64,000 nt of DNA from Arenibacter certesii DSM 19833. Lineage in GTDB: Bacteria > Bacteroidota > Bacteroidia > Flavobacteriales > Flavobacteriaceae. Below are positions 9,820-45,482 of the stretch, in pieces. Location of the stretch: NCBI RefSeq assembly GCF_000429545.1, contig NZ_KE386914.1, forward strand, positions 220,977 through 284,976. Direction: 5' to 3'. Both the position numbers and the translations under genes were made by a program. Position 1 is the first letter of the stretch. The number at the start of each line of letters is the position of its first letter. The notes beneath the pieces are model-generated. The model was given only the letters and a program-made list of their open reading frames with translations, was not told the DNA's origin and made no database searches.

Positions 9820-10539
9820 TTAGGTCAATAAATTGCCGTTTTCGTCCCATTCGGCAATAACATTACGCTTACTCTGATCTACACATTTAGCAATCCATTC
9901 CGGGTCATACGACATTCCGTGCTGCTCCAAAACATCTTCTGGAACTCCGTCCCAAACATTGGGAGAATTTCCCTTGTACCCTAAATCGGCAATACCCACT
10001 TTAGAAGTATAATAACCGGTTAAAGTAAGTCCACGGAACATATGGAAAAACTGAATTTCCAAAGGTTGTTTACTTAATGAAACCTCAGGATCATGATAGC
10101 AAATAGTATCACAAATTTGTTTCTGCTGCTCTAGCGTAGCCGATTTAAAATCGACCCCAAACTCTGTATTGCTCTTATGGTCCAACCACATTAATCCCCC
10201 TAACAAAGTCATTTGCATAGTAGGGAGGTCCTTTCCGATAAACTCGATAAACTGGGGCACTTCCGCCTCAATAGGTCCACCATGCGGCTCTTTTGGGGGA
10301 AGAATCACCGTGCTCAGCACCGCAATGGTTTCCATTTCGTGTTCGTTAAATAGCTCTTCCTCATGTAGTTTTGCATCTCGCTCCGCTTCTTCTGGTGTTC
10401 TACCATAAAAACCTTCAGCGCCTTTAATGATTTCTTCCTCAGCAGGTGCCTTTGTTTCCGGGGTACATCCGTGAAATGCCAAACCAGCGGCACCAACCCC
10501 CAAAATCATTGTCTGTATACTTTTTCTCCTGTCCATCAT
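9820..10539 (-). CDS. Gluconate 2-dehydrogenase subunit 3 family protein (Tat/lipoprotein signal)
   Basis: The small partner subunit of membrane-associated GMC sugar or sugar-acid dehydrogenases. Subunit 3 is thought to carry the complex through the Tat pathway. The 239-residue product begins MMDRRKSIQTMILG, a twin-arginine-like signal, and runs into a lipobox-like AFHGC near residue 25. This suggests export of the folded complex and anchoring. The family domain follows (ETIAVLSTVILPP near 70, HMFRGLTLTGYYTS near 170). It starts three bases after the GMC oxidoreductase stop, so the two are translationally linked partners. Confidence 0.9.
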   Translation of the reverse strand: MMDRRKSIQTMILGVGAAGLAFHGCTPETKAPAEEEIIKGAEGFYGRTPEEAERDAKLHEEELFNEHEMETIAVLSTVILPPKEPHGGPIEAEVPQFIEFIGKDLPTMQMTLLGGLMWLDHKSNTEFGVDFKSATLEQQKQICDTICYHDPEVSLSKQPLEIQFFHMFRGLTLTGYYTSKVGIADLGYKGNSPNVWDGVPEDVLEQHGMSYDPEWIAKCVDQSKRNVIAEWDENGNLLT

Positions 10540-28265: not shown

Positions 28266-28700
28266 ATGTTTTCTAAAGCTTGTGAATACGGTATAAAAGC
28301 AACTATATTTATTGCGCAAAAGTCCCTACATAAGACGCGTGTTAGTCTTAAGGAAATTGCTGCAGAAATAAACTCTCCCGAAGCATTTACAGCGAAAATA
28401 TTACAATCCCTAGCTAGAAACGGTTTGGTAGATTCTCACAAAGGTCCTACTGGAGGTTTTGAAATGAACAGAGCAAAGATGGACACCATAAAATTATACG
28501 ATATCGTAAATGCGATAGACGGTGATAATATTTTTGTTGGTTGTGGACTAGGCTTAAAACATTGTGACGCCAATAAGCCCTGTCCAGTTCACGATAAATT
28601 TGTTGGGATAAGAGAAAATCTTACCCAGATGCTAAAGAATACGACCATGTATGAGTTGGCATCGGGATTAGATATTGGACTGACTCAGTTAAAACGATAA
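28266..28700 (+). CDS. Rrf2 family transcriptional regulator (NsrR/IscR-like, three cysteines)
   Basis: A 144-residue winged-helix regulator. The N-terminal helix-turn-helix is seen around VSLKEIAAEINSPEAFTAKI (about 27-46), followed by the wing in GPTGGFEMNR. C93, C100 and C106 (C-x6-C-x5-C) are placed like the Fe-S ligands of IscR and NsrR. An iron-sulfur sensor of NO or oxygen state is therefore likely. It heads the cytochrome oxidase and NO-protection genes. A matching dyad lies in its own promoter and in the nos promoter. Confidence 0.92.
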   Translation: MFSKACEYGIKATIFIAQKSLHKTRVSLKEIAAEINSPEAFTAKILQSLARNGLVDSHKGPTGGFEMNRAKMDTIKLYDIVNAIDGDNIFVGCGLGLKHCDANKPCPVHDKFVGIRENLTQMLKNTTMYELASGLDIGLTQLKR

Positions 28701-28772
28701 TTTTTTAATAGTTTAATTCACTACAGGTTCATAATAAAATAATAAAAGATAAAAAGGTATTAAAATCGCAAT

Positions 28773-30578
28773 ATGAATAACAAACGCTCACTTATAACAT
28801 TGCTTACGCTACTTTTGCCAATGTTAATATTGCCACAAAACACCAATATCAGTACTGATAATTGGATAACGAGTCCGGGAATTATAGGAACAGTAGTGCT
28901 TATCCTTATCGTATTCCTAGTCGCTATTATCATTCTCTTGGCAAAATTAAATACCTATGCAGATACCTATAAAAGGAAGCAGCTAAATAAGAAGGGCCTA
29001 GAATTCACTGAAGAGATGATAGGAATGCGGGAAGAAGAAATAGATCGCATTCTAGAAGGCCGTAAAAAAGCCCTTAATTTTAAATTATCGGGAGACGAAT
29101 TAGGGAGTCAGGAAACGGTAAAGGACCGCAAAGGGCTGGTAAACATGGTAACACATGAGCCAGAAAATCCTATGTTTGATGAGAAAAAAAACACTCCCAT
29201 TGCGCTAGAAACTCCAGAACCATTAAAGAAAATTGTACTTTATTACCTAGGAACCGCAGTTTTTTGGCTCGTATTTGGAACACTTGTAGGGCAATATGTT
29301 GGCATGAAATTCGTATGGCCCGAAATGGACAGTCAACCGTGGCTCTCCTTTGGTCGTCTTCGCCCAGTACATACCAATGCTGTTTTTTGGGGGTGGGCAT
29401 CATTAGCGATGATTGGCTTGGGTTATTTTGTGATTGCCCGTACCTCCAATACCGTGATCCACAATTATAAAAGTGCTTGGTATTCTTTAATCCTGATAAA
29501 CCTCGCCGTGCTCTTGGGCACACTCTTCTTAATGGGAGGTATTAATAACGGAGGTGGGGAATATAGAGAATACATATGGCCTGTGATGTTACTTTTTGCA
29601 ATTGCCATCATTATAACTTTTTGGAATTTCTACAAAACGGTTGCAAGTAGAAAAATTAAAGATATCTACGTATCCAACTGGTATATTCTAGCTGCATTAA
29701 TATGGACCACGGTATTAGCAATTATTGGGTATCTGCCCAATTTCCAGGACGGGCTGGGAGAAACCGTAATTCAAGGTTACTATATGCACCAGGGAGTTGG
29801 TATGTGGTTTATGACATTTACCCTTGGTTTAATATACTATTACCTTCCATCTTCACTTAATAAGCCTATTTATTCTTACTCTCTGGGCGTATTGGCCTTT
29901 TGGACACAAATGTTGTTCTATACTATGATTGGGACACACCATTTTGTGTTTAGCCCTCTTCCCTGGTGGTTGCAGACTACCGCTATAGTGTTTAGTGCCG
30001 GGATGTTTATTCCTGTTGTTGCTGGTACTACCAACTTTTTAATGACCATGAAAGGAAGTTGGAACCATATTTCCAAAAGTTACGTACTACCTTTCTTTCT
30101 AGTAGGCGTTATTTTTTACTTTGTAGGTTCTACACAAGGAAGTTTACAGGCTTTCCGGTTTACCAACTATGTATGGCATTTTACAGATTTTAACGTGGCT
30201 CACTCCCATATGACCATGTACGGAATTATCACTTTTATCCTCTGGGCCTGTTTTTACACTATTTTACCCAAATTAACGGGAAAAGAACCACCTCAAGTTT
30301 TTGTAGGCGCCCATTTCTGGTTAGCATTTATAGGGCTATTCGCTTATATGATGTCCTTAATGGCAGGAGGCACCTTAAAAGGGTTAAGCTGGATTGATGG
30401 CAATGCTTTTTTAGAGTCTGTTATTTTAATGAAACCATACTGGGTATGGCGTGCTATTGGTGGTTCGCTAATGTTTGTCTCGCATCTGGTTTTTGCCTAT
30501 AACTTTTATTACATGGTAAACAATAAGAAACCTATTGAAAATTTAGATGCTCCAGTATTAGAGCGTGTGAATAACTAA
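28773..30578 (+). CDS. cbb3-type heme-copper oxidase subunit I (CcoN-like) with N-terminal extension
   Basis: The catalytic subunit of a C-family heme-copper oxidase, 601 residues. About 150 N-terminal residues add a membrane helix (35-57) and a charged linker ahead of the core. Ligands visible: H200 in RLRPVHTNAVFWGW (low-spin heme), H339 and H389/H390 (copper B), H477 and H479 in AHSHMTMYG (high-spin and low-spin heme). The tyrosine pair in PIYSYSLG (367/369) matches the cbb3 active site. The glutamate of cNOR (H-x3-EG) is absent here (HQGVG), so oxygen rather than NO reduction is the likelier reaction. The partner is the downstream CcoO-like gene. Confidence 0.88.
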   Translation: MNNKRSLITLLTLLLPMLILPQNTNISTDNWITSPGIIGTVVLILIVFLVAIIILLAKLNTYADTYKRKQLNKKGLEFTEEMIGMREEEIDRILEGRKKALNFKLSGDELGSQETVKDRKGLVNMVTHEPENPMFDEKKNTPIALETPEPLKKIVLYYLGTAVFWLVFGTLVGQYVGMKFVWPEMDSQPWLSFGRLRPVHTNAVFWGWASLAMIGLGYFVIARTSNTVIHNYKSAWYSLILINLAVLLGTLFLMGGINNGGGEYREYIWPVMLLFAIAIIITFWNFYKTVASRKIKDIYVSNWYILAALIWTTVLAIIGYLPNFQDGLGETVIQGYYMHQGVGMWFMTFTLGLIYYYLPSSLNKPIYSYSLGVLAFWTQMLFYTMIGTHHFVFSPLPWWLQTTAIVFSAGMFIPVVAGTTNFLMTMKGSWNHISKSYVLPFFLVGVIFYFVGSTQGSLQAFRFTNYVWHFTDFNVAHSHMTMYGIITFILWACFYTILPKLTGKEPPQVFVGAHFWLAFIGLFAYMMSLMAGGTLKGLSWIDGNAFLESVILMKPYWVWRAIGGSLMFVSHLVFAYNFYYMVNNKKPIENLDAPVLERVNN

Positions 30579-30591
30579 AAACAAGAACGAC

Positions 30592-31614
30592 ATGTTTGAT
30601 TTTCATAAAAACCATAAAATACTTGTCCTTGCTGCTTTTTTAGGGTTTGTAACCTTAAGCTTTATAGTTGCAGTGTTTCCTGCCTATCAGATGCAAGATG
30701 TTGAGCCCCTTCCAGGGCAGGTTCAATTGACGGAAAATGAAAGAAAAGGGCTTAATCTTTATATTAAAGAAGGATGTGTGGCCTGCCATACCCAACAGGT
30801 TCGGAATATAGAAATGGATAATACCTGGGGAGATCGCCCCTCTATCCCCTCCGACTATATTTTTAGTAAGGAACGAATGGATATATGGCGACAATCACCT
30901 TCCCTTTTAGGAAGTGAAAGAACGGGTCCCGACCTTACGGATATAGGCAGAAGGCAACCTAGTGAAGCTTGGCACCTACTCCATTTATATAATCCGAGGA
31001 CTGTGGTAGGAGCGTCTATAATGCCCTCCTATCCTTGGTTATTTAAAGAAGTAGAAAGTGGTTCGGTAAAAGAGAATAATGTGGTAGTAAATCTACCTGA
31101 AGGCTATGCCACATCATCTGGGAGAACGCTAATTGCCAAAGAAGAAGCCTTACAACTGGTAGCCTACTTACAATCCTTAAAGCAAGTAAAGTTACCAGAC
31201 GGGCAAGTTGAAGAATTTATACCAGCCTTAAAACAAATACAGACAGAAGGAAATAAAGTGAATCAAGGAAGTGCCAGTGCTTCCGGTATTAATGGAGCAC
31301 AACTTTATAAACAAGCCTGTGCTGTTTGCCACCAAGATAACGGAAAAGGAGTTGCTGGGGCTTTCCCTCCCTTGGCAGGAAGTCCGATTGTAAACGATGT
31401 AGACCCTGAGCTTATGATCCGGATTATTTTACAAGGTTATGATGCGCGTAGTGAATATGCTTCTATGCAGCCCTTCGCAGATCAATTATCCGATGCTGAA
31501 ATAGCAGCTATTGCAAATCACGAACGTACAAGTTGGGGGAATAATGCACCAGAGATTACGGAAGAAGAGGTAAGGAAACTACGTGAATTTGTGGAGAATC
31601 AACCAAGCAACTAA
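30592..31614 (+). CDS. CcoO-like cytochrome c subunit fused to a second cytochrome c domain
   Basis: A 340-residue membrane-anchored diheme protein. After one N-terminal helix (about 10-31) comes a CcoO-like domain with CVACH at 62-66 and a likely axial methionine in SIMPSYPWL near 144. A linker and a second class I cytochrome c domain with CAVCH at 243-247 (about 232-340) follow. It starts 13 bases after the CcoN-like gene. No separate ccoP is present, so the second domain may replace the electron-entry role of CcoP; this is inference. Confidence 0.88.
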   Translation: MFDFHKNHKILVLAAFLGFVTLSFIVAVFPAYQMQDVEPLPGQVQLTENERKGLNLYIKEGCVACHTQQVRNIEMDNTWGDRPSIPSDYIFSKERMDIWRQSPSLLGSERTGPDLTDIGRRQPSEAWHLLHLYNPRTVVGASIMPSYPWLFKEVESGSVKENNVVVNLPEGYATSSGRTLIAKEEALQLVAYLQSLKQVKLPDGQVEEFIPALKQIQTEGNKVNQGSASASGINGAQLYKQACAVCHQDNGKGVAGAFPPLAGSPIVNDVDPELMIRIILQGYDARSEYASMQPFADQLSDAEIAAIANHERTSWGNNAPEITEEEVRKLREFVENQPSN

Positions 31615-35115: not shown

Positions 35116-35841
35116 ATGAAAAATTTAATGACTAAAAATATCGGACAAATCGTAGCGGATAATTATAGAACTGCACAAATTTTTAAAAATCATAAAATAG
35201 ATTTTTGTTGTAAAGGAAATAGAACAATTATAGAAGTTGCCGAGAAAAATAAGCTTGACGCGAATTCTCTTTTAAGAGAAATTGAAACGGTACAGCAACA
35301 AACGAATGGCGACAATATAGATGTTATGACCTGGCCTTTAGACCTACTTGCCGATTATATTGAAAAGAAGCACCACAGATACGTAGAAGCACAGATACCG
35401 GTACTAAATCAGTATTTAGCCAAACTTTGTAGGGTACATGGGGAACGTCATCCAGAATTATTGGAAATCACCCAGCATTTTAATAAATGCGCTGGGGAAT
35501 TGGCCATGCACATGAAAAAAGAGGAGCTGATGGTCTTCCCTGCTGTTAGGAAAATGGTGAAAGCCAAACATACTGGAACTAAATTGGAGCCCTCTAAATT
35601 AGGTAGCATCAAGAATCCTATTCAAATGATGATGCAAGAACATGAGAACGAAGGGGACCGATTTAGACTGATAGACGAATTAAGTAATAACTATACACCA
35701 CCTACGGATGCTTGTAATACTTATAGGGTCACTTTTTCACTGCTCCAAGAATTTGAAGAAGACCTACACAGACATATCCATTTAGAGAACAACATCCTTT
35801 TTCCAAAAGCGGAAATCTTGGAGAAGGAACTCAATGATTAA
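35116..35841 (+). CDS. Iron-sulfur cluster repair di-iron protein (Ric/ScdA/YtfE)
   Basis: A 241-residue repair protein for Fe-S clusters damaged by NO or oxidants. The N-terminal ScdA_N domain has NYRTAQIFKNHKIDFCCKGN (about 15-35). The hemerythrin-like di-iron domain follows, with histidines in KKHHRYVE, HGERHPE, MHMKKEE, QEHENEGD and HRHIHLENN. In other bacteria NsrR-type regulators control this gene, which suits the Rrf2 gene upstream. The neighbours are further non-heme iron and NO-related genes. Confidence 0.95.
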   Translation: MKNLMTKNIGQIVADNYRTAQIFKNHKIDFCCKGNRTIIEVAEKNKLDANSLLREIETVQQQTNGDNIDVMTWPLDLLADYIEKKHHRYVEAQIPVLNQYLAKLCRVHGERHPELLEITQHFNKCAGELAMHMKKEELMVFPAVRKMVKAKHTGTKLEPSKLGSIKNPIQMMMQEHENEGDRFRLIDELSNNYTPPTDACNTYRVTFSLLQEFEEDLHRHIHLENNILFPKAEILEKELND

Positions 35842-37719: not shown

Positions 37720-38115
37720 ATGATAATAAAAACAGAAATAAAAGAGCGAGAAGACGTTAATCTTCTTGTGACTAGCTTCTATGCTAAAATCAGAAAGCAT
37801 GAGGTTCTAGGCCCTATTTTTAATGGTATAATTACGGACTGGGACAGCCACCTGGAGTTATTGACCGATTTTTGGGAAAGTCACCTTCTACTTAAACGAA
37901 AATATATGGGCAACCCCATTGTAGCACATCAGAAAGTAGATGAGAAAATGGATCATACCATTACGCAAGAACATTTTGGACTATGGTTAAATGAGTGGTT
38001 TGCCACTATAGATGAACTTTTTGAAGGAGAAGTGGCTTGGATAGCCAAGAATAAAGCACGAAAAATGTCGACCATGCTTTTCTTACATATTTTTCAACAT
38101 AGGAGTCGCGCATAA
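37720..38115 (+). CDS. Group III truncated hemoglobin (second copy)
   Basis: A 131-residue globin similar to the one at 32929-33318 (VTSFYAKIRKHEVLGPIFN, then TDFWESHLLLKRKYMGNP, then QEHFGLWLNEWFATIDELF with the proximal histidine). The two are clearly diverged paralogues. A 195-base spacer upstream holds the short inverted repeat CTCAC-CTT-GTGAG at 37689-37701, 18 bases before the start, which might be regulatory. The gene converges on the nos operon with a 52-base gap. Confidence 0.92.
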   Translation: MIIKTEIKEREDVNLLVTSFYAKIRKHEVLGPIFNGIITDWDSHLELLTDFWESHLLLKRKYMGNPIVAHQKVDEKMDHTITQEHFGLWLNEWFATIDELFEGEVAWIAKNKARKMSTMLFLHIFQHRSRA

Positions 38116-38167: not shown

Positions 38168-39391
38168 CTAGTTATCAATACGCTTTACCTTAGTATTGGA
38201 CTGCCACAAGATTAGTATAATGGCTATGGGAATCAATACACTTCCTATAGCCAAGTACTTTAAATAACCATCTACCAATGGCCATCTCAACCATGCTGCC
38301 ATCCCCTTATAAAATATGAGTACTTCTGTAAAGACAAATCCCATCAAATAAATAGCATAGGATACCCTAGTAAGCTTAATCATTCTAAAATATTCCAAAA
38401 CAAAGAACAAGCCTAAGCTAATTACGCCCAAAAATGTCCAATGCAAATACCCAACAGTAAAGTCAAGAATGGTAGCCGCCAAATTTGCAAAATAGGGAAA
38501 GGTACTTAGCAACTGCAACATCATTTTAGCACATAAAAGAACGGCAACCAATATTAGCATACCATATTGCATTTTGGTCAAAACCGACGTTAATCCACTT
38601 CGATTTTCATAGCAAAACCGCACTAGAACTACCAAAGCAATCAATTGTAAGATGGCCCCCGCTCCTCCCAAAAGATAAAGCAATAGGTTGGGCCCCGTCC
38701 AAAGCGCAGATAGGAACACGCTCAGTATAATTCCTAGAGCGGCATTCCAGAAAAATATTTTGAAGGTTTTTGAAGACATTTTAAACCCATGTGCTTCTAA
38801 AATATGAATAAACAACCCAATAAGGGCTAAAATCATCCATCCATTATATTGAAAGTGCAAGTAAAAATAAATGGCCAGTCGGTACCAGATAGATTCAGGC
38901 CCCAATAGCGTCATAATTGGTCCCAAAGCCCATGGTCCAACACTTGAACCTACCATAAACCATAATGACACTGCAATACAGCGATAGGCATTGGTATCTT
39001 TTACTGATTTGGGAACGTGCTTTAAAAAGAACCCGGTAAACCAATAGGATGCTATTAAAAATAAAGTTGAAAAAATAATAGAAAATAAGGCATACCCTTG
39101 AAAAGGAAAGGTAAACAACATGCCTATTAAACAAAATTGGGTAAACCAAAATATTCTTTTATACTTCCCATTCAGTTCCTGTTTCCGTAGGAACACGTAG
39201 TATAAAAGTGAGGTAAGTGCACTATATACCCATCCCAACAGCGCAATATGAGAATGCGTATGAACTATAAATCGATAATTCATTTGTATGGGCATTGGTG
39301 CTACCACAAAGGCTCGCAAAAGGACACCTAACAAAGCGGCTAACAAAAAATAGCCCAAGGAAGAATTAATATGTGATTTAACTGAATTCAA
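38168..39391 (-). CDS. Heme-copper-oxidase-like membrane protein lacking the active site
   Basis: A 407-residue protein with about twelve membrane helices, last gene of the nos operon. It reads like a reduced heme-copper oxidase subunit I. FIVHTHSHIALLGW (H46 in register with the low-spin heme ligand), YLHFQYNGW (H179) and GYLHWTFLG (H317, low-spin heme ligand position) are present. The histidine that would hold the high-spin heme is Y315, and the copper-B HH pair is absent. I predict a single low-spin heme b and an electron-transfer or sensing role. NnrS-like proteins are an alternative reading. Confidence 0.7.
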   Translation of the reverse strand: MNSVKSHINSSLGYFLLAALLGVLLRAFVVAPMPIQMNYRFIVHTHSHIALLGWVYSALTSLLYYVFLRKQELNGKYKRIFWFTQFCLIGMLFTFPFQGYALFSIIFSTLFLIASYWFTGFFLKHVPKSVKDTNAYRCIAVSLWFMVGSSVGPWALGPIMTLLGPESIWYRLAIYFYLHFQYNGWMILALIGLFIHILEAHGFKMSSKTFKIFFWNAALGIILSVFLSALWTGPNLLLYLLGGAGAILQLIALVVLVRFCYENRSGLTSVLTKMQYGMLILVAVLLCAKMMLQLLSTFPYFANLAATILDFTVGYLHWTFLGVISLGLFFVLEYFRMIKLTRVSYAIYLMGFVFTEVLIFYKGMAAWLRWPLVDGYLKYLAIGSVLIPIAIILILWQSNTKVKRIDN

Positions 39392-39472
39392 TTATAAGGT
39401 GGTAAAGCGCTAAAGTACTAATTATAGTGGTCTACGATAAAAAATTCCCGCAGGGGCTGCGAAGTTTAGTTA

Positions 39473-40255
39473 TTAAAAATCCTTTCTTTTCGATTTGTAT
39501 CCCAATCTCCAAACCGGGATTATGGTCCATAGAGTAAGCATCACTATAGAAATCATTAGGCCAAGATTAGTTCCAAAAAATTGTTTGAAAATTGCTCCTG
39601 TATATCCCAATAGGGCAGAAATATCCAATTTTAATAGGATAAGGGTCCTAGAGAGATCTATAGGATTAAACATGGTGGCAATCAAAGAGAAATTATCCAA
39701 AGGGTATTTTTCAAAAACAATCAAGGACATTAAAAACAGTCCGTCATAGATAACTGCTAGAAACAGCCAAACCAATACAGCGTAGCCAAATCCCTTAATT
39801 TTATTTTCGTTAGAAAGGGCTATGTTAAAGGCCAATGCCGTAAAAATCATAGTTAAAAACGCTCCCGTAATTAGCAATAGGGAAAAATCCCAAATGGCGT
39901 TACTTTCAAAAAGTCCATATAGTGCAAAGGGAATTCCAAGTCCCAATACCAAACTCATAGTTAATGAACCAGCAACCCCAAGGTATTGTCCAAAAAATAT
40001 GGACGATCGTTTAATGGGTTGAGCCAATAGCAGTTCGGTAAATTCTTTGGAATTATAGAAGTACATCACACCAAAAATGGTCCCTATCAGCGGTACCAGT
40101 ACAATTATGACATTCATTAACGTTATTACAGCCTTGGACAACTCATTGTTTAAAAACAATAATACAAAGCCCAACAGCAAGTAAAAAAGGAAATACACGT
40201 AGCTCCATCGGCTGCGCATTAGATCGTAAAAGCTATATTTTAATATTTTAATCAT
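39473..40255 (-). CDS. nosY: ABC transporter permease of the nos cluster
   Basis: A 260-residue ABC-2 type permease with six membrane helices, opening with MIKILKYSFYDLMRSRWSYV. The LLLAQPIKRSSIFFGQYLG loop near 75 is typical of NosY. With NosF and NosD it supports maturation of the CuZ centre of NosZ, probably by exporting or supplying a sulfur compound. It starts five bases after nosF, and the oxidase-like gene follows 81 bases later. Confidence 0.92.
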   Translation of the reverse strand: MIKILKYSFYDLMRSRWSYVYFLFYLLLGFVLLFLNNELSKAVITLMNVIIVLVPLIGTIFGVMYFYNSKEFTELLLAQPIKRSSIFFGQYLGVAGSLTMSLVLGLGIPFALYGLFESNAIWDFSLLLITGAFLTMIFTALAFNIALSNENKIKGFGYAVLVWLFLAVIYDGLFLMSLIVFEKYPLDNFSLIATMFNPIDLSRTLILLKLDISALLGYTGAIFKQFFGTNLGLMISIVMLTLWTIIPVWRLGYKSKRKDF

Positions 40256-40260
40256 GATTT

Positions 40261-40959
40261 TTAGGGAGTAGATATGGCCGCAATGGCATGTTCAAAATTA
40301 GTTTGATTGGTTTTAATCTTTAAGGCACTTATACTTCCTTTAAAATATATTTTTCCTTCCAAAAGATAGACCACCTCATCGGAAACCTCTTCTACAAACT
40401 GCATAATATGTGAGGTTATTAAAAAAGTCTTTCCTTTTGCCTTTTCCTCAAAGATGAGTTCTTTTAATCTGATGAGCGCCAACGGATCTAACCCATTGGT
40501 AGGCTCATCCAGGATAATAAGTGGACAATCGAACATAAAGGTCAATACAATATTTACTTTCTGCTTGGTTCCACCAGACAGGTTGCTCAATTTTTTATCC
40601 AAAAAAGGCTCCAGGCCAAATCGGGCTATAAGTTGCTCTTCGTCACTAGGCATCTGCCGTATGTCCTTTATCATCTCAATCAACTCCTTTACCCTAAGGT
40701 TACCCGGAAAATTGGCTATTTGTGGTAAATAGTTGATCTGTTGTCGGTATTTCCACTGATTTTTAATACGGGTGTCCATAACAGATATAGTACCCTTATC
40801 CGGAATTACCATTCCTAAGACAGCTTTGATCAAGGTTGTTTTACCAGAACCATTGGGTCCTAAGACAGCAAATATATCACCTCCGTGAATACTAAGGTCC
40901 AATCCCGTTAATACCGGGATTTTTCCAAATTTTTTATATAGGTTTTCTACCAGTATCAT
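40261..40959 (-). CDS. nosF: ABC transporter ATP-binding protein of the nos cluster
   Basis: A 232-residue ATPase with Walker A GPNGSGKTTLIK near 34, the signature LSGGTKQKV near 127 and Walker B LIILDEPTNGLDP near 145. It pairs with NosY, the permease, in copper-centre maturation. The start overlaps the end of nosD by four bases (ATGA). Alternative ABC functions are possible, but the nos neighbourhood fixes the assignment. Confidence 0.93.
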   Translation of the reverse strand: MILVENLYKKFGKIPVLTGLDLSIHGGDIFAVLGPNGSGKTTLIKAVLGMVIPDKGTISVMDTRIKNQWKYRQQINYLPQIANFPGNLRVKELIEMIKDIRQMPSDEEQLIARFGLEPFLDKKLSNLSGGTKQKVNIVLTFMFDCPLIILDEPTNGLDPLALIRLKELIFEEKAKGKTFLITSHIMQFVEEVSDEVVYLLEGKIYFKGSISALKIKTNQTNFEHAIAAISTP

Positions 40960-42194
40960 TTGATTCTTTTCATTAATGGTTTTGCATCAACTAAATTATC
41001 CGGAGTAAAAACCGGAGAGACCTTTTCAGAAAAATCGATTATATCCATAAATAGACTTCGCAAAAGAATAATAGTTTCTGGAGTCCGGTTTACGATATAA
41101 GAAAATAGCTTAACAGGTCTATAGGGTATATCACCTATGCCATTCCTATCCAAATCATAACCAGTATAATCGCTCCAATAATTTTCCTCAAATACATTGT
41201 CGTTTAGATTACTGTTATAGGCAAGGTCAAATGAATTATACAGAAAATTATTTCTGGTGATCGTATTGGTATAACAAGCCCCTCGTACTTTTATGGCCCA
41301 TCCATTCCTTATAAAATCATTGTTTTTATAAACTATTCGGTTAGAGCCTTCAATACTGATCCCTACGGTATTCTCTTCAAACGTATTCCCAGAAATCTCG
41401 GCGTCATTAATCTCCTTTAACAAAAGGCCAAAAGAAGCTGTTCCCCAATTATTTTTAAAGGTATTCCCGTGCATGTTTATCCTTTTAGAAAACATCACTG
41501 CTACCCCTGCCCCATTACTCTCAAAAGTATTCCCCTCATAGATATCATCATTGGAAAACATAAAATGAAGCCCATAGCGCAGATTATTGGCGCTATAGTT
41601 ATTCTCGATGGTGATGAAATCCGAAAACTCTAGATAAATTCCATCCCTTACCTGCTGTACAGAATTATTGGCGACCATGATATGTTGCGAATGCCATAAT
41701 TGAATGCCATTCCCTGAGTTGTATTCATCTTTTGCATCTCCTACAATAGTATTATTCAGGACTTTCCCGTTTTTAGACCTTTCTAAGTAGATACCAAAGA
41801 ATAACTTTTCTAACTTCACATTCTGTATTAAAAAATCCTCACTTCTTATAACGCGTATGGCCGCATAGTCCGAGGTATAGCTAGTGCCCACATTTTTAAT
41901 ATGTAAGCCATCTATGGTAACGTTATTGGCTGCAATCTGAATAATCTCACCTTGCTCTTCCCCATCAATTATGGGATGGTCTTCTCCAATCAAGGTCAAC
42001 GGCTTATCTATCCTAATATTAAACTCTTTATAGGTTCCTTTTTTAATCAAAATAGTATCAAAATCCGCTGCCTGGGCTATTGCTTCTTTAATAGTCTTTA
42101 TTGAACATGTACTGCAGACCGTAATTGTAGAAGCCCACAGATTAGTGCCAAGCAAGAGCAAAATCACATATATTAAAACATGCTTCCTCTTCAT
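40956..42194 (-). CDS. nosD: Nitrous oxide reductase maturation protein NosD
   Basis: A 412-residue periplasmic protein with a signal peptide (cut near residue 22) and a right-handed beta-helix built of NosD/CASH repeats. Typical rungs read like NNVTIDGLHIKN and GNTFEENTVGISI. It helps assemble the copper-sulfur CuZ centre of NosZ with NosF and NosY. Length and repeat pattern are normal. It sits between nosL and nosF in the usual order. Confidence 0.94.
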   Translation of the reverse strand: MKRKHVLIYVILLLLGTNLWASTITVCSTCSIKTIKEAIAQAADFDTILIKKGTYKEFNIRIDKPLTLIGEDHPIIDGEEQGEIIQIAANNVTIDGLHIKNVGTSYTSDYAAIRVIRSEDFLIQNVKLEKLFFGIYLERSKNGKVLNNTIVGDAKDEYNSGNGIQLWHSQHIMVANNSVQQVRDGIYLEFSDFITIENNYSANNLRYGLHFMFSNDDIYEGNTFESNGAGVAVMFSKRINMHGNTFKNNWGTASFGLLLKEINDAEISGNTFEENTVGISIEGSNRIVYKNNDFIRNGWAIKVRGACYTNTITRNNFLYNSFDLAYNSNLNDNVFEENYWSDYTGYDLDRNGIGDIPYRPVKLFSYIVNRTPETIILLRSLFMDIIDFSEKVSPVFTPDNLVDAKPLMKRIK

Positions 42195-42299: not shown

Positions 42300-42731
42300 T
42301 CAGTTCTCAAATCTCAGTTTTAACTGTTCCCAATTTAATTGGTCGCCATCGTGAATCAGCAAAGCCTCCTCTATCCCTTCCTTGGTTCCGAAAGCTGTTA
42401 GGTATTCTCCCATGGGACTGGGTATCCCCTCACTAACCAGGTAAAATGCTTTGGTTGCATCGATTAATTTTCCAGGGTTAGAATAATCATTTGTTAAGAA
42501 TAGGGCTATTTCGCTAGAATCAATATCGTTTAGATGGTTCAACATACATTCCGTAGCATCAAAATTAAATCCCTTGCCCTTTTCCGTTACAATTTGAGCA
42601 GCATGTTGTCTATCTACTATCGTCATACTACAAAAGTGACACGCATCTGACCCGTAATCTATGGGTTGTGGTTTAATACTACAGGAAGTAAATACGAGTA
42701 ATAAAATAGCAGGGAGAAAATATTTTGTCAT
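42300..42731 (-). CDS. nosL: Copper chaperone lipoprotein NosL
   Basis: A 143-residue lipoprotein (lipobox FTSCSIK, cysteine at 17) of the NosL family, which delivers copper to apo-NosZ. The metal-binding text is DACHFCSMTIVD near 29-40 (C31, C34, M36), followed by FDATECMLNHL near 74. It lies between the 209-residue membrane protein and nosD, all on the same strand. Confidence 0.94.
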   Translation of the reverse strand: MTKYFLPAILLLVFTSCSIKPQPIDYGSDACHFCSMTIVDRQHAAQIVTEKGKGFNFDATECMLNHLNDIDSSEIALFLTNDYSNPGKLIDATKAFYLVSEGIPSPMGEYLTAFGTKEGIEEALLIHDGDQLNWEQLKLRFEN

Positions 42732-42763: not shown

Positions 42764-43393
42764 TTAATTGGTTTCACTATTCACTTTTATTTTATCACTT
42801 TTCCAACCGAAGTAGGAAGCAACCAAAGTAAGTAGCATTCCAACAAACAACAGATAGCCACCAACACCCGGTAATGAGGTAACATTAAAATTCAAAATTT
42901 TAGCATTCCCTAATAGGGGCGGTTTATAGGTCATAGGAGTACCATCTGGTTGGGTAAGCTTCATAATGGCTCGCGGATCTAAATCAGTTCCATAATCCGT
43001 CATCCATGCATTAAAATCATACATTCCTAAAAGCCCCAGAACAGACATCAGCACAAACCATCCAACAAACCATTTATAGGAAACCTTGCCAAACAACCCA
43101 AGAAGTCCAATGAGTAATCCAAGAAAAACCATTCCTCCAACTACCAAAGGAAAAGTGCTAAACTCCCACATTTCATCTGGTTTAGGTAAGGTCTTCATCC
43201 CAATATAGTGATTTAACCCATCTATGTTCTGAATATCAAATTCCTGAACTCCCCTAATACCGTTAATATGGATATTCATTCCCAAAGGCTCCGGATATTG
43301 TGGTGCTCCTAGCATAATATTCCAAAGTGGAAATACAAAGAGTCCCAATAACAACAGTGAGCCAATAATCATTAATACACTTGCTTTTTTCAT
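42764..43393 (-). CDS. Nos-cluster membrane protein of unknown function
   Basis: A 209-residue protein with four predicted helices: about 5-28, 84-105, 108-130 and 176-197. Two soluble, probably periplasmic parts carry conserved-looking text (INGIRGVQEFDIQNIDGLNH and the ATP-unlike IMKLTQPDGTPMTYKPPLLG). I do not recognise a named family. It lies between nosZ and nosL with short spacing and so probably serves NosZ maturation or electron delivery. It has no heme or iron-sulfur motif. Confidence 0.75.
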   Translation of the reverse strand: MKKASVLMIIGSLLLLGLFVFPLWNIMLGAPQYPEPLGMNIHINGIRGVQEFDIQNIDGLNHYIGMKTLPKPDEMWEFSTFPLVVGGMVFLGLLIGLLGLFGKVSYKWFVGWFVLMSVLGLLGMYDFNAWMTDYGTDLDPRAIMKLTQPDGTPMTYKPPLLGNAKILNFNVTSLPGVGGYLLFVGMLLTLVASYFGWKSDKIKVNSETN

Positions 43394-43520: not shown

Positions 43521-45482
43521 TTAATCTTCTCCTAGGGACCAACTCAATTCCAAATCGGAATCTGCTGGTGAAACCCGTACATAACCTTGCATTTCTTGGT
43601 GAAGTGCAGAACAAAAATCTGTACAGTAGAATGGCCAGACACCTACTTTTTTAGGCTCCCATAATAGCGTCTTGGTCTGCCCTGGCACAATCAATAATTC
43701 CGCATTTGTAGCACCGATCATAGCAAAGCCGTGAGGGACATCAAAATCTTGTTCTTGATTGGTTATATGGAAATACACCTTATCTCCCACTTTTATACCT
43801 TCAATATTGTCTGGTGTAAAGTGGCTACGGATAGTGGACATATAGATATGTACATCTTTTCCGTCTCTTTCTATCTTGGTATCGTTTGCTGTTAAAGCAG
43901 CATAGGGATGTTTATTCTCAGAAAGTTTAAATATCTTTTTAGAATTAGCTATCAATTTCTCTGCTGGTATCCCTGCAGCATAATGTGGTTCCCCATGTGT
44001 TGGAAAATCATATAGCAACTCCATTTTATCGCCAGAAATATCATACAACTGAGCAGAGTGTTCCATTTCTGGACCTACTGGAAGATACCTATCTTTAGTA
44101 ATCTTGTTCATAGAGATATAATATTTTCCAAATGGTTTTTGGGAATTTCCTCCGGGAATCATTCCATGTCCTACAGAATAATAAGAAGGCTGTCTGTCCA
44201 CAACTTCCCAAGTTCCCAATTTCCATTTTACCACTTCAGAAGAGATAAAGAAAGTAGTATAGGCGTTTCCTTTTCCATCAAATTCGGTATGTAACGGTCC
44301 AAGACCTGGCTGGGAAACTACTCCCGCAAGAACATCTTCAAACTTTAAAATAGGAATTCCATAAGCTTCTCCATCAAATTTTTCTTTCTCAATGGCTTCC
44401 AACATTCTAGTAAAGGAATGTACTGTTAAATCTGAGGACAGCTTTCCGTTCCCTACTATATATTCCCCAGATGGATCTACATCACAACCATGTGGAGATT
44501 TAGGCGTAGGCAAGAAATAAACAGCGCCAGGAACTTTTGTTGGATCTACCGTAAGGACTTCTTTCTTCATGGTAGAAGTAGCAGTATGGGTATGATCATC
44601 ATAAACGTTATGCGCATACTCGGCCGGCATTATAGTTCCTCCTCCGTTATTTACATACTCTTCTATTTTCTTCCAGTTTACAGCAGCAATAAAATCCTTA
44701 TCATTTTGAGAAGAATTTACCTCCATTAGGGTATTTGCCTCCTCAGTATTATAGGTGGTAAAGAAAAACCATCCATGAGATTTCCCTCTTCCTGGATGCG
44801 ACAGGTCATAATTGAAGCCAGGCATCATCAATTGGAATTTGATGTCCATACGACCCGTTTCAGGGGCCACACTAATAAAAGACAAGGCACCTTTAAAATT
44901 CCCTTTATAATCTTTAATAGGCATATCTCGCTGAGGAACAGGAACAGCAAACCTAGTACCAGCTACTACATACTCTGTATTTTCTGTAATGAAAGAGGAA
45001 CTGTGGTTACCAGCACTATTGGGCACCTCAATAATCTCTGCCGTCTCAAAAGTAGTCAGGTCGATCCTAGCGATTCTAGGGGTGTTATTCCCATTGATAA
45101 AAATCCACCTTCCGTCTAACTCCCCATTCGTCTGAGAAATATCGGGGTGGTGAGCATCATCCCAAGGCACAAATCCGAAAGAGGTATTTAGCATGGGTTT
45201 GGTTTCCTCGGAATAGCCATAGCCATTTGTAGGAAACTGGGAAAAAACAGGAATCTCTTTAAACATCCTTCCAGAAGGCAATCCGTATACGGTAAGGTTA
45301 CCGGTATATCCTCCGGAGAAGAAGGCATAGAATTCGTCATACTCACCAGGAGCAACATATACCCGCTCTGCAGCTCCTGAACTCAAGGCACCGCCAGAAG
45401 ATGATTTCCCTTGGTTTCCGCAACTGGTCACTAGAGCAAAAATACCCAGCAATCCGAAATATAAATTAGTATATTTTTTCAT
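43521..45482 (-). CDS. nosZ: Nitrous oxide reductase, Sec-type (clade II) lipoprotein
   Basis: Reduces N2O to N2 in the periplasm. The 653-residue product has a Sec/lipoprotein signal (LVTSCGNQ, cysteine at 21) in place of the twin-arginine signal of clade I. Its beta-propeller holds the CuZ histidines (DDAHHPDIS near 108-116 among others), and a C-terminal cupredoxin domain holds the CuA ligands C620, C624, H628 and M631 in FYCTDFCSALHQEMQGY. Length is normal for Bacteroidota. It lies between the fasciclin gene and the 209-residue membrane protein. Confidence 0.97.
   Translation of the reverse strand: MKKYTNLYFGLLGIFALVTSCGNQGKSSSGGALSSGAAERVYVAPGEYDEFYAFFSGGYTGNLTVYGLPSGRMFKEIPVFSQFPTNGYGYSEETKPMLNTSFGFVPWDDAHHPDISQTNGELDGRWIFINGNNTPRIARIDLTTFETAEIIEVPNSAGNHSSSFITENTEYVVAGTRFAVPVPQRDMPIKDYKGNFKGALSFISVAPETGRMDIKFQLMMPGFNYDLSHPGRGKSHGWFFFTTYNTEEANTLMEVNSSQNDKDFIAAVNWKKIEEYVNNGGGTIMPAEYAHNVYDDHTHTATSTMKKEVLTVDPTKVPGAVYFLPTPKSPHGCDVDPSGEYIVGNGKLSSDLTVHSFTRMLEAIEKEKFDGEAYGIPILKFEDVLAGVVSQPGLGPLHTEFDGKGNAYTTFFISSEVVKWKLGTWEVVDRQPSYYSVGHGMIPGGNSQKPFGKYYISMNKITKDRYLPVGPEMEHSAQLYDISGDKMELLYDFPTHGEPHYAAGIPAEKLIANSKKIFKLSENKHPYAALTANDTKIERDGKDVHIYMSTIRSHFTPDNIEGIKVGDKVYFHITNQEQDFDVPHGFAMIGATNAELLIVPGQTKTLLWEPKKVGVWPFYCTDFCSALHQEMQGYVRVSPADSDLELSWSLGED

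Follow-up and report, generated by a model that had tools for sequence, protein, structure and literature searches.

The gene that follows nosY in Arenibacter certesii DSM 19833 raises the question of what an oxidase-like membrane protein without an oxidase active site does at the end of a nos gene cluster. To our knowledge, the electron route to NosZ in Bacteroidota is not settled. Bacteria with clade II nos have been discussed as N2O sinks (extracts of PMC7477175 and PMC9697520), and the extracts of PMC9697520 describe clade II nos clusters that lack nosR and flavobacterial nos clusters in which the genes are named only as far as nosY. The initial annotation of the gene, here called the pseudo-oxidase gene, was made from a 64,000-nucleotide stretch of the genome (the window). 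It proposed that the product is either an electron carrier for NosZ in place of NosR or NosGH or a sensor related to NnrS. We analyzed the gene in the window and the family to which it belongs in 395 genomes of the phylum.

Genomic context of the pseudo-oxidase gene

The initial annotation did not state a strand. The plus strand of the interval contains 33 stops; the gene is read from the minus strand. It is present as a single copy in its genome, and the closest named relative found belongs to Arenibacter latericius (94%). As first described, it is the last gene after the nos genes, in the order nosZ, a NosB-like gene, nosL, nosD, nosF, nosY, and pseudo-oxidase gene (Table 1). The NosB-like protein has no Pfam or NCBIfam match, and the second of the two NosB stretches given in the extracts of PMC9697520 (YGHN) was not seen in its translation. 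Cotranscription of the pseudo-oxidase gene with the nos genes in this species is uncertain, because the 81-base gap behind nosY holds a terminator-like hairpin. Such hairpins are no more frequent in the region than expected by chance (8 sites versus 6.7 in shuffles); a similar one is visible in A. latericius (L087).

Within four genes on either side, the window encodes Fer2, hemerythrin, and two products without a Pfam match, together with nosY, nosF, nosD, and nosL; no cytochrome c or azurin gene was seen over that distance. Arenibacter arenosicollis (L039) retains RIC and the globin-like gene together with the family gene, and no nos gene was found in the 17 kb examined. At 28266 to 31614 on its plus strand, the window also carries an Rrf2 regulator gene together with genes for a divergent CcoN-like subunit (oxidase or NO reductase) and for a CcoO-like protein fused to a cytochrome c. 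The CcoN-like subunit has a long N-terminal extension and scores 251 bits against TIGR00780 (cutoff, 583). It may be the NO reductase of this genome, since COX1 matches number three with this subunit included and NirK is matched above its cutoff. The Tyr that precedes the HH pair by six residues, however, gives it an oxidase-like look.

Table 1. Positions of genes, codons, and other features in the window, counted from its first nucleotide. Fractions refer to 122 distinct family sequences.
Feature	Position	Strand	Description or basis
Pseudo-oxidase gene	38168..39391	-	407 aa, TTG start, 12 transmembrane helices (predicted helices grouped by the authors)
nosY, ABC permease	39473..40255	-	Subthreshold ABC-2 match and operon position
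nosF, ABC ATPase	40261..40959	-	
nosD	40956..42194	-	TIGR04247, 459 bits (cutoff, 300)
nosL	42300..42731	-	PF05573
NosB-like membrane protein	42764..43393	-	Contains LNHYIGM, one of two NosB stretches in extracts of PMC9697520
nosZ, clade II (Sec type)	43521..45482	-	TIGR04246, 935 bits (cutoff, 625)
RIC (ScdA_N and hemerythrin)	35116..35841	+	PF04405 and PF01814; strand opposite to that of the pseudo-oxidase gene
Globin-like gene	37720..38115		Labeled by similarity or position; no Pfam match at 0.001
Terminator-like hairpin	39447..39463	-	Between nosY and the pseudo-oxidase gene
H46 codon	39254..39256	-	Helix II, low-spin heme ligand position; 122/122 and HCO alignment
H317 codon	38441..38443	-	Helix X, low-spin heme ligand position; 122/122 and HCO alignment
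Y315 codon	38447..38449	-	Replaces high-spin heme ligand; Y 95, F 24, W 2, L 1
H179 codon	38855..38857	-	Helix VI, first CuB/FeB ligand register; 106/122
N183 codon	38843..38845	-	N 105, E 14; H-x3-N-G motif
H48 codon	39248..39250	-	Helix II, invariant; 122/122
H44 codon	39260..39262	-	Helix II; 119/122
R26 codon	39314..39316	-	End of helix I; 121/122
Y100 codon	39092..39094	-	Start of helix IV; 122/122

Fold and relation to heme-copper oxidases

The AlphaFold2 model of the pseudo-oxidase, for which 48 of 81 family sequences served as input, has a pLDDT of 92.6 and a pTM of 0.92, and its predicted fold is that of a 12-helix heme-copper oxidase (HCO) subunit I. All 16 PDB chains found by Foldseek at an E value of ≤0.001 are HCO or NO reductase chains, the best match being cbb3 CcoN (E = 4.5e-8). 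VIA-align superposed the model on cbb3 (3mk7) with a Z score of 34.4 (402 residues aligned; rmsd, 3.4) and on cNOR (4xyd) with a Z score of 34.1 (394 residues; rmsd, 3.2), at 12 to 15% identity in these structural alignments. The resemblance to HCO subunit I noted at the outset is thus found again in the predicted structure, by comparison with both CcoN and NorB-type chains.

This kinship is visible only by fold and by profile-profile comparison, not by sequence search. A phmmer search of PDB sequences with the pseudo-oxidase returned five weak unrelated matches, and an hmmsearch of the PDB with family alignment A1 returned none. No Pfam or NCBIfam model reached its cutoff for the pseudo-oxidase or for the 15 relatives in that alignment, and Pfam COX1 had no match to the window protein. 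Subthreshold Pfam matches within the family (DUF2871 in 7 of 16 sequences and COX1 in 1 of 16) were not used as proof. The window protein had no match in PHROGs at an E value of ≤0.01, and no relative of its gene was confirmed in viral contigs.

Against a mixed profile of 22 cbb3 and NO reductase sequences, the family gave a probability of 95.1% (E = 3.4e-8; score, 68.0; 383 columns), compared with scores of 20.8 for reversed columns and 29.0 to 36.9 for ten block-shuffles (probability up to 26.8%). Control profiles of NosY, NosB, and DsbD reached 0.1 to 0.3%, and a four-sequence NnrS profile was within 0.1 to 0.4%. Matches to single HCO families were weak, at 1.4 to 31.8% (CcoN, 7.9%; cNorB, 31.8%; qNOR, 4.2%; HCO of the window, 1.4%), and the cNorB and qNOR alignments joined the N-terminal part to the helix X region, out of register. 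Helix VII is out of register between the mixed-HCO and CcoN-only alignments; therefore, we make no residue-level claim for that helix.

Loss of the active site and retention of low-spin heme ligands

In the alignment to the mixed profile, H46 and H317 fall on the low-spin heme ligand columns, H179 falls on the first CuB/FeB ligand column, and Y315 falls on the high-spin ligand, which agrees with every assignment made in the initial annotation. The codons of H44, H46, H48, H179, Y315, and H317 were confirmed at the positions given in Table 1. Conservation was assessed in 122 distinct sequences, including that of the window, which were left from 182 family matches after near-duplicates had been dropped by shared 4-mers; they were gathered with the family profile, which carries some built-in bias toward conserved residues. 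Both low-spin ligand positions are invariant in this set, as are G99 and H48, the last of which had escaped notice earlier. Neither of the two outcomes that the initial annotation had named as refuting it, a fold unrelated to HCOs or a lack of conservation of H46 and H317, was thus obtained.

By comparison, position 315 is aromatic in 121 of the 122 sequences, and an HH pair occurs anywhere in residues 200 to 262 in only 3, so that the pair is indeed gone, as had been stated. H179 is replaced in 16 sequences, 13 of which have a His one turn earlier, at position 175, and 14 of which have Glu at position 183. Helices VII and VIII make up much of the catalytic pocket in oxidases. Neither helix has a residue conserved at 90% among the 122 sequences; the same is true of helices III, XI, and XII. 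These comparisons show computationally that the catalytic heme-metal center was lost and that the low-spin heme ligands were kept. H46 and H317 would hold one low-spin heme b. Oxidase or NO reductase activity was rejected on the basis of the missing ligands (position 315 and the HH pair), and with no second cofactor, the oxidase reaction could not be completed.

The pseudo-oxidase shares with CcoN and NorB/qNOR the 12-helix fold, the helix order, the low-spin ligand positions in helices II and X, and one ligand position in helix VI, but it differs from them in lacking the high-spin heme ligand and the HH pair. From the His triad that binds CuB or FeB in HCO subunit I (one His in helix VI and the HH pair in helix VII), it retains only the His in helix VI. 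NO reductases have a glutamate in helix VI four residues after the FeB His, a position where Asn predominates in the family (N183 in Table 1). The resulting H-x3-N-G motif is present in 102 of the 122 sequences and H-x3-E-G in none, whereas the latter is present in the two NO reductases compared; the likeness of the two motifs hints at a possible NO-reductase-like ancestor. Residues conserved at 90% include R26, H44, H46, H48, Y100, K289, Q293, and H317, which in the model are predicted to lie toward the periplasmic ends of helices I, II, IV, IX, and X, with the sidedness taken from HCO topology. The retained heme would likewise be near the periplasmic face, as placed by the fold.

The fold and heme ligands are those known from the HCO superfamily. 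What is new is the loss of the active site in a protein conserved across the phylum, the context of NO genes, and the lack of a family model. The family also shows that an oxidase scaffold can persist in conserved form after its active site is gone, a case that profile annotation misses.

Distribution across the phylum

The family has a match in 72 of the 395 genomes; some of these matches are weak, and one of the weak ones (G178) is a doubtful fragment of 67 positions that contains a stop. nosZ is present in 127 genomes (counted over the cutoff; 234 at E ≤ 0.001), RIC (PF04405) in 149 (counted at E ≤ 0.001; 147 over the cutoff), and NnrS over the cutoff in 5. Family and nosZ occur together in 55 genomes, the family without nosZ in 17, nosZ without the family in 72, and neither in 251, for an odds ratio of 11.3, which, like the other co-occurrence statistics given here, ignores shared ancestry. 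Among the 55 genomes with both, the two genes are on the same contig in 42 and at most 10 kb apart in 32. A dedicated NosZ partner is ruled out by the 17 of 72 family genomes without nosZ and the 72 of 127 nosZ genomes without the family.

For RIC, the corresponding numbers are 65 with both, 7 with the family only, 84 with RIC only, and 239 with neither (odds ratio, 26.4); that is, RIC is found in 65 of the 72 genomes with the gene versus 84 of the 323 without it. Among genomes lacking nosZ, RIC is present in 15 of 17 with the family versus 38 of 251 without it, and among genomes with nosZ, the values are 50 of 55 versus 46 of 72. RIC and nosZ are themselves associated, with an odds ratio of 12.6. 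The family tracks the NO repair protein RIC more closely than it tracks nosZ.

Gene neighborhoods of relatives

Neighborhoods were compared for 117 family genes, which gave 80 nonredundant loci after close relatives had been dropped by shared 4-mers; the labels nosY, CcoP, qNOR-like, and globin-like are our own, from similarity or position. Same-strand neighbor pairs with nosY number 62 among the 117 genes, and the gap is less than 40 bases in 42 of them. Within seven genes, nos genes occur in 52 of the 80 loci and are absent from 28, RIC occurs in 42, and an Rrf2 regulator occurs in 37. An Rrf2 gene is the immediate neighbor of the family gene in 19 of the 80 loci, compared with 48 of 635 for the other genes in these loci, and RIC is within two genes in 27 of 80 versus 120 of 635. 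Both are thus enriched next to the family gene, and both enrichments almost vanish at a distance of four genes.

Of the 28 loci without nos genes, 13 have a RIC, Rrf2, NOR, or globin-like gene, cbb3 genes are present in 6, and the other 9 contain no gene of the kinds sought. A recurrent order in such loci is Rrf2, azurin, qNOR-like, RIC, and family gene; it was found in seven loci, all from one genus, and the gene families were tested in one of them (L144). Copper nitrite reductase (NirK) is encoded within 6 kb of the family gene in L144 and L048. A Tunicatimonas plasmid carries Rrf2, ric, the family gene (annotated as "hypothetical protein"), cytochrome c, and nosZ in this order. The family is thus linked computationally to genes of NO metabolism and denitrification.

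Two genomes, both from the same genus, have the family gene continuing in frame and without a stop into a cytochrome c (G134 in L164, 600 aa; G250 in L190, 594 codons open). The fused domain is a lipoprotein-like cytochrome c with CTACH, directly upstream of nosZ, and an internal start for the cytochrome c is possible. Genes for a cytochrome c domain or azurin are otherwise not enriched: 15 of the 80 loci have one at a distance of up to four genes, versus 166 of 635 other genes (25 of 80 versus 224 of 642 with a looser motif count), and several of these 15 belong to other enzymes (NorC-like, NirK-like, and probably CcoP). Cytochrome c neighbors were therefore rejected as general evidence for electron transfer on the background count. 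Because these neighbors are not above background, the fusion is the only direct pointer to electron transfer.

Electron transfer or NO protection

We consider it probable that the pseudo-oxidase, which is encoded in NO and N2O gene clusters of marine bacteria, functions in electron transport or in NO buffering and not as an oxidase. We tentatively read it as a membrane cytochrome b with one low-spin heme b that belongs to the NO and denitrification gene set as an accessory electron-transfer protein. Menaquinol would deliver an electron close to the heme on the periplasmic side, and the heme b held by H46 and H317 would pass it to a periplasmic one-electron carrier, either cytochrome c or azurin, which could then serve NosZ, NirK, or NO reductase, depending on the genome. 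This reading is consistent with the fold, the ligands, the Tunicatimonas locus, the pairs with nosY, and the presence of azurin, NO reductase, NirK, RIC, and Rrf2 genes in contexts without nosZ, and the fusion favors electron exchange with a periplasmic carrier. Against it stand the lack of cytochrome c or azurin enrichment, the restriction of the fusion to one genus, the 72 nosZ genomes without the gene, and the tie to RIC and Rrf2, with which NO protection agrees no less well. We identified no quinol site, and helix XII, as noted above, has no residue conserved at 90%. According to extracts of PMC13087809, qNOR uses His and Arg/Asp near heme b, the Arg/Asp being near helix XII.

The proposal that the protein carries electrons to NosZ in place of NosR or NosGH therefore holds only in part: the location behind the nos genes and the cytochrome c fusion upstream of nosZ agree with it, and the family members in genomes without nosZ, together with the nosZ genomes without a member, do not. 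Like NosR and NosGH, the pseudo-oxidase may deliver electrons toward NosZ, but it is a single cytochrome-like protein with no flavin or iron-sulfur match in Pfam or NCBIfam. It is, like NosB, a membrane protein of clade II nos clusters, but NosB is a separate gene of the same operon, and the profile comparison of the two gave 0.1%.

The link to RIC and Rrf2 fits either electron supply to denitrification or NO protection. Hardly less plausible than electron transfer is that the family represents the Bacteroidota counterpart of NnrS, a membrane heme protein for NO protection or NO sensing that would be induced with RIC under an Rrf2-type regulator and would lessen NO harm without being a reductase. 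The close association with RIC in genomes and loci, including genomes without nosZ, points in this direction, as do the positions of Rrf2 beside the gene and the scarcity of NnrS in the phylum (5 genomes versus 72 for the family), but the link to RIC is unspecific, since RIC tracks nosZ too. Both proteins are membrane proteins of about 400 aa in NO and denitrification neighborhoods: nirK adjoins nnrS in L198 and L206, norR and hmp are near it in L204, and in an IMG/VR contig (L207:58-4164), an NnrS gene lies directly behind Rrf2, with ScdA_N (RIC-type) and phage capsid genes close by. In this contig, NO-response genes thus lie next to phage genes, and NnrS has the Rrf2 and RIC-type companions seen with the family. 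An H-x-H and a later invariant His are also similarly placed, H46-x-H48-x4-G53 falling on NnrS H67-x-H69-x4-G74 and H317 on H312, in an alignment that is not significant.

Indeed, the two differ in having no significant sequence relation. In hhalign against NnrS alignment A3 (ten canonical sequences), the family reached 0.26% with a score of 17.5, compared with 16.7 to 20.8 for shuffles, and PF05940 (NnrS) matched neither the window protein nor its 15 relatives. The single-sequence NnrS model had a pLDDT of 52, too poor for a fold comparison. The relation to NnrS is thus a lead, and the suggestion of an NnrS-related sensor is matched by the context (RIC, Rrf2, NOR, and NirK) and not by the profiles. 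NO does not bind readily to a bis-His heme, and an NnrS-like role leaves the cytochrome c fusion without explanation. We keep electron transfer narrowly ahead because a one-heme oxidase scaffold with a cytochrome c offers obvious chemistry and NO protection by a six-coordinate heme as yet offers none. It is doubtful, but conceivable, that there is a class of HCOs without an active site, derived from NO-reductase-like ancestors and handling NO with one low-spin heme, in which the Bacteroidota family and NnrS would be two branches and the H-x-H of helix II and the His of helix X would be the shared core.

A role in the biogenesis of NosZ, NO reductase, or cbb3 oxidase, or in handling heme or copper for these enzymes, seems improbable to us. 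The gene adjoins nosY in many loci, cbb3 genes are near in 6 of the 28 loci without nos genes, and a COX15/CtaA, radical-SAM, SCO1, or CopD gene is near single members; however, the CtaA, SCO, and CopD neighbors were each tested in one locus, the family is found without nos and has no match in 72 of the 127 nosZ genomes, and the conserved bis-His heme site would exceed what a handling factor needs. Very improbable is a reductase with an unusual center in which H179 and its neighbors replace the usual metal site, since the conservation of H179 and the resemblance of H-x3-N-G to the NO reductase motif are outweighed by the aromatic residue at the high-spin ligand position, the rarity of the HH pair, and the variability of helices VII and VIII.

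Relation to published descriptions and minor observations

No description of the family was found in the titles, abstract openings, and extracts examined, the last from PMC1274295, PMC9697520, PMC7477175, PMC7618691, PMC8175989, PMC6264515, PMC9268430, and PMC13087809. The extracts of PMC6264515 report nos scaffolds with Rrf2, dnrN, nnrS, and a "transmembrane protein" whose identity with the family cannot be told from the description. A conserved but unannotated one-heme relative of oxidases in the NO and N2O gene clusters of Bacteroidota, the family offers a concrete candidate, whether for the supply of electrons or for protection against NO.

Several other genes were observed near family members. 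Two mini proteins in L174 (9500-9949, 149 aa; 10038-10445, 135 aa) match no more of COX1 than its first quarter to third, one below the cutoff (E = 1.9e-5) and the other above it (1.4e-9). A COX15/CtaA heme A synthase homologue lies between the family gene and nosY in L166 (8750-9808). We also found a 600-aa protein without a Pfam match (L104:6047-7852 and L054:6046-7869), whose gene is no more than seven genes away from the family gene in 14 of the 80 loci and adjacent to it in 9.
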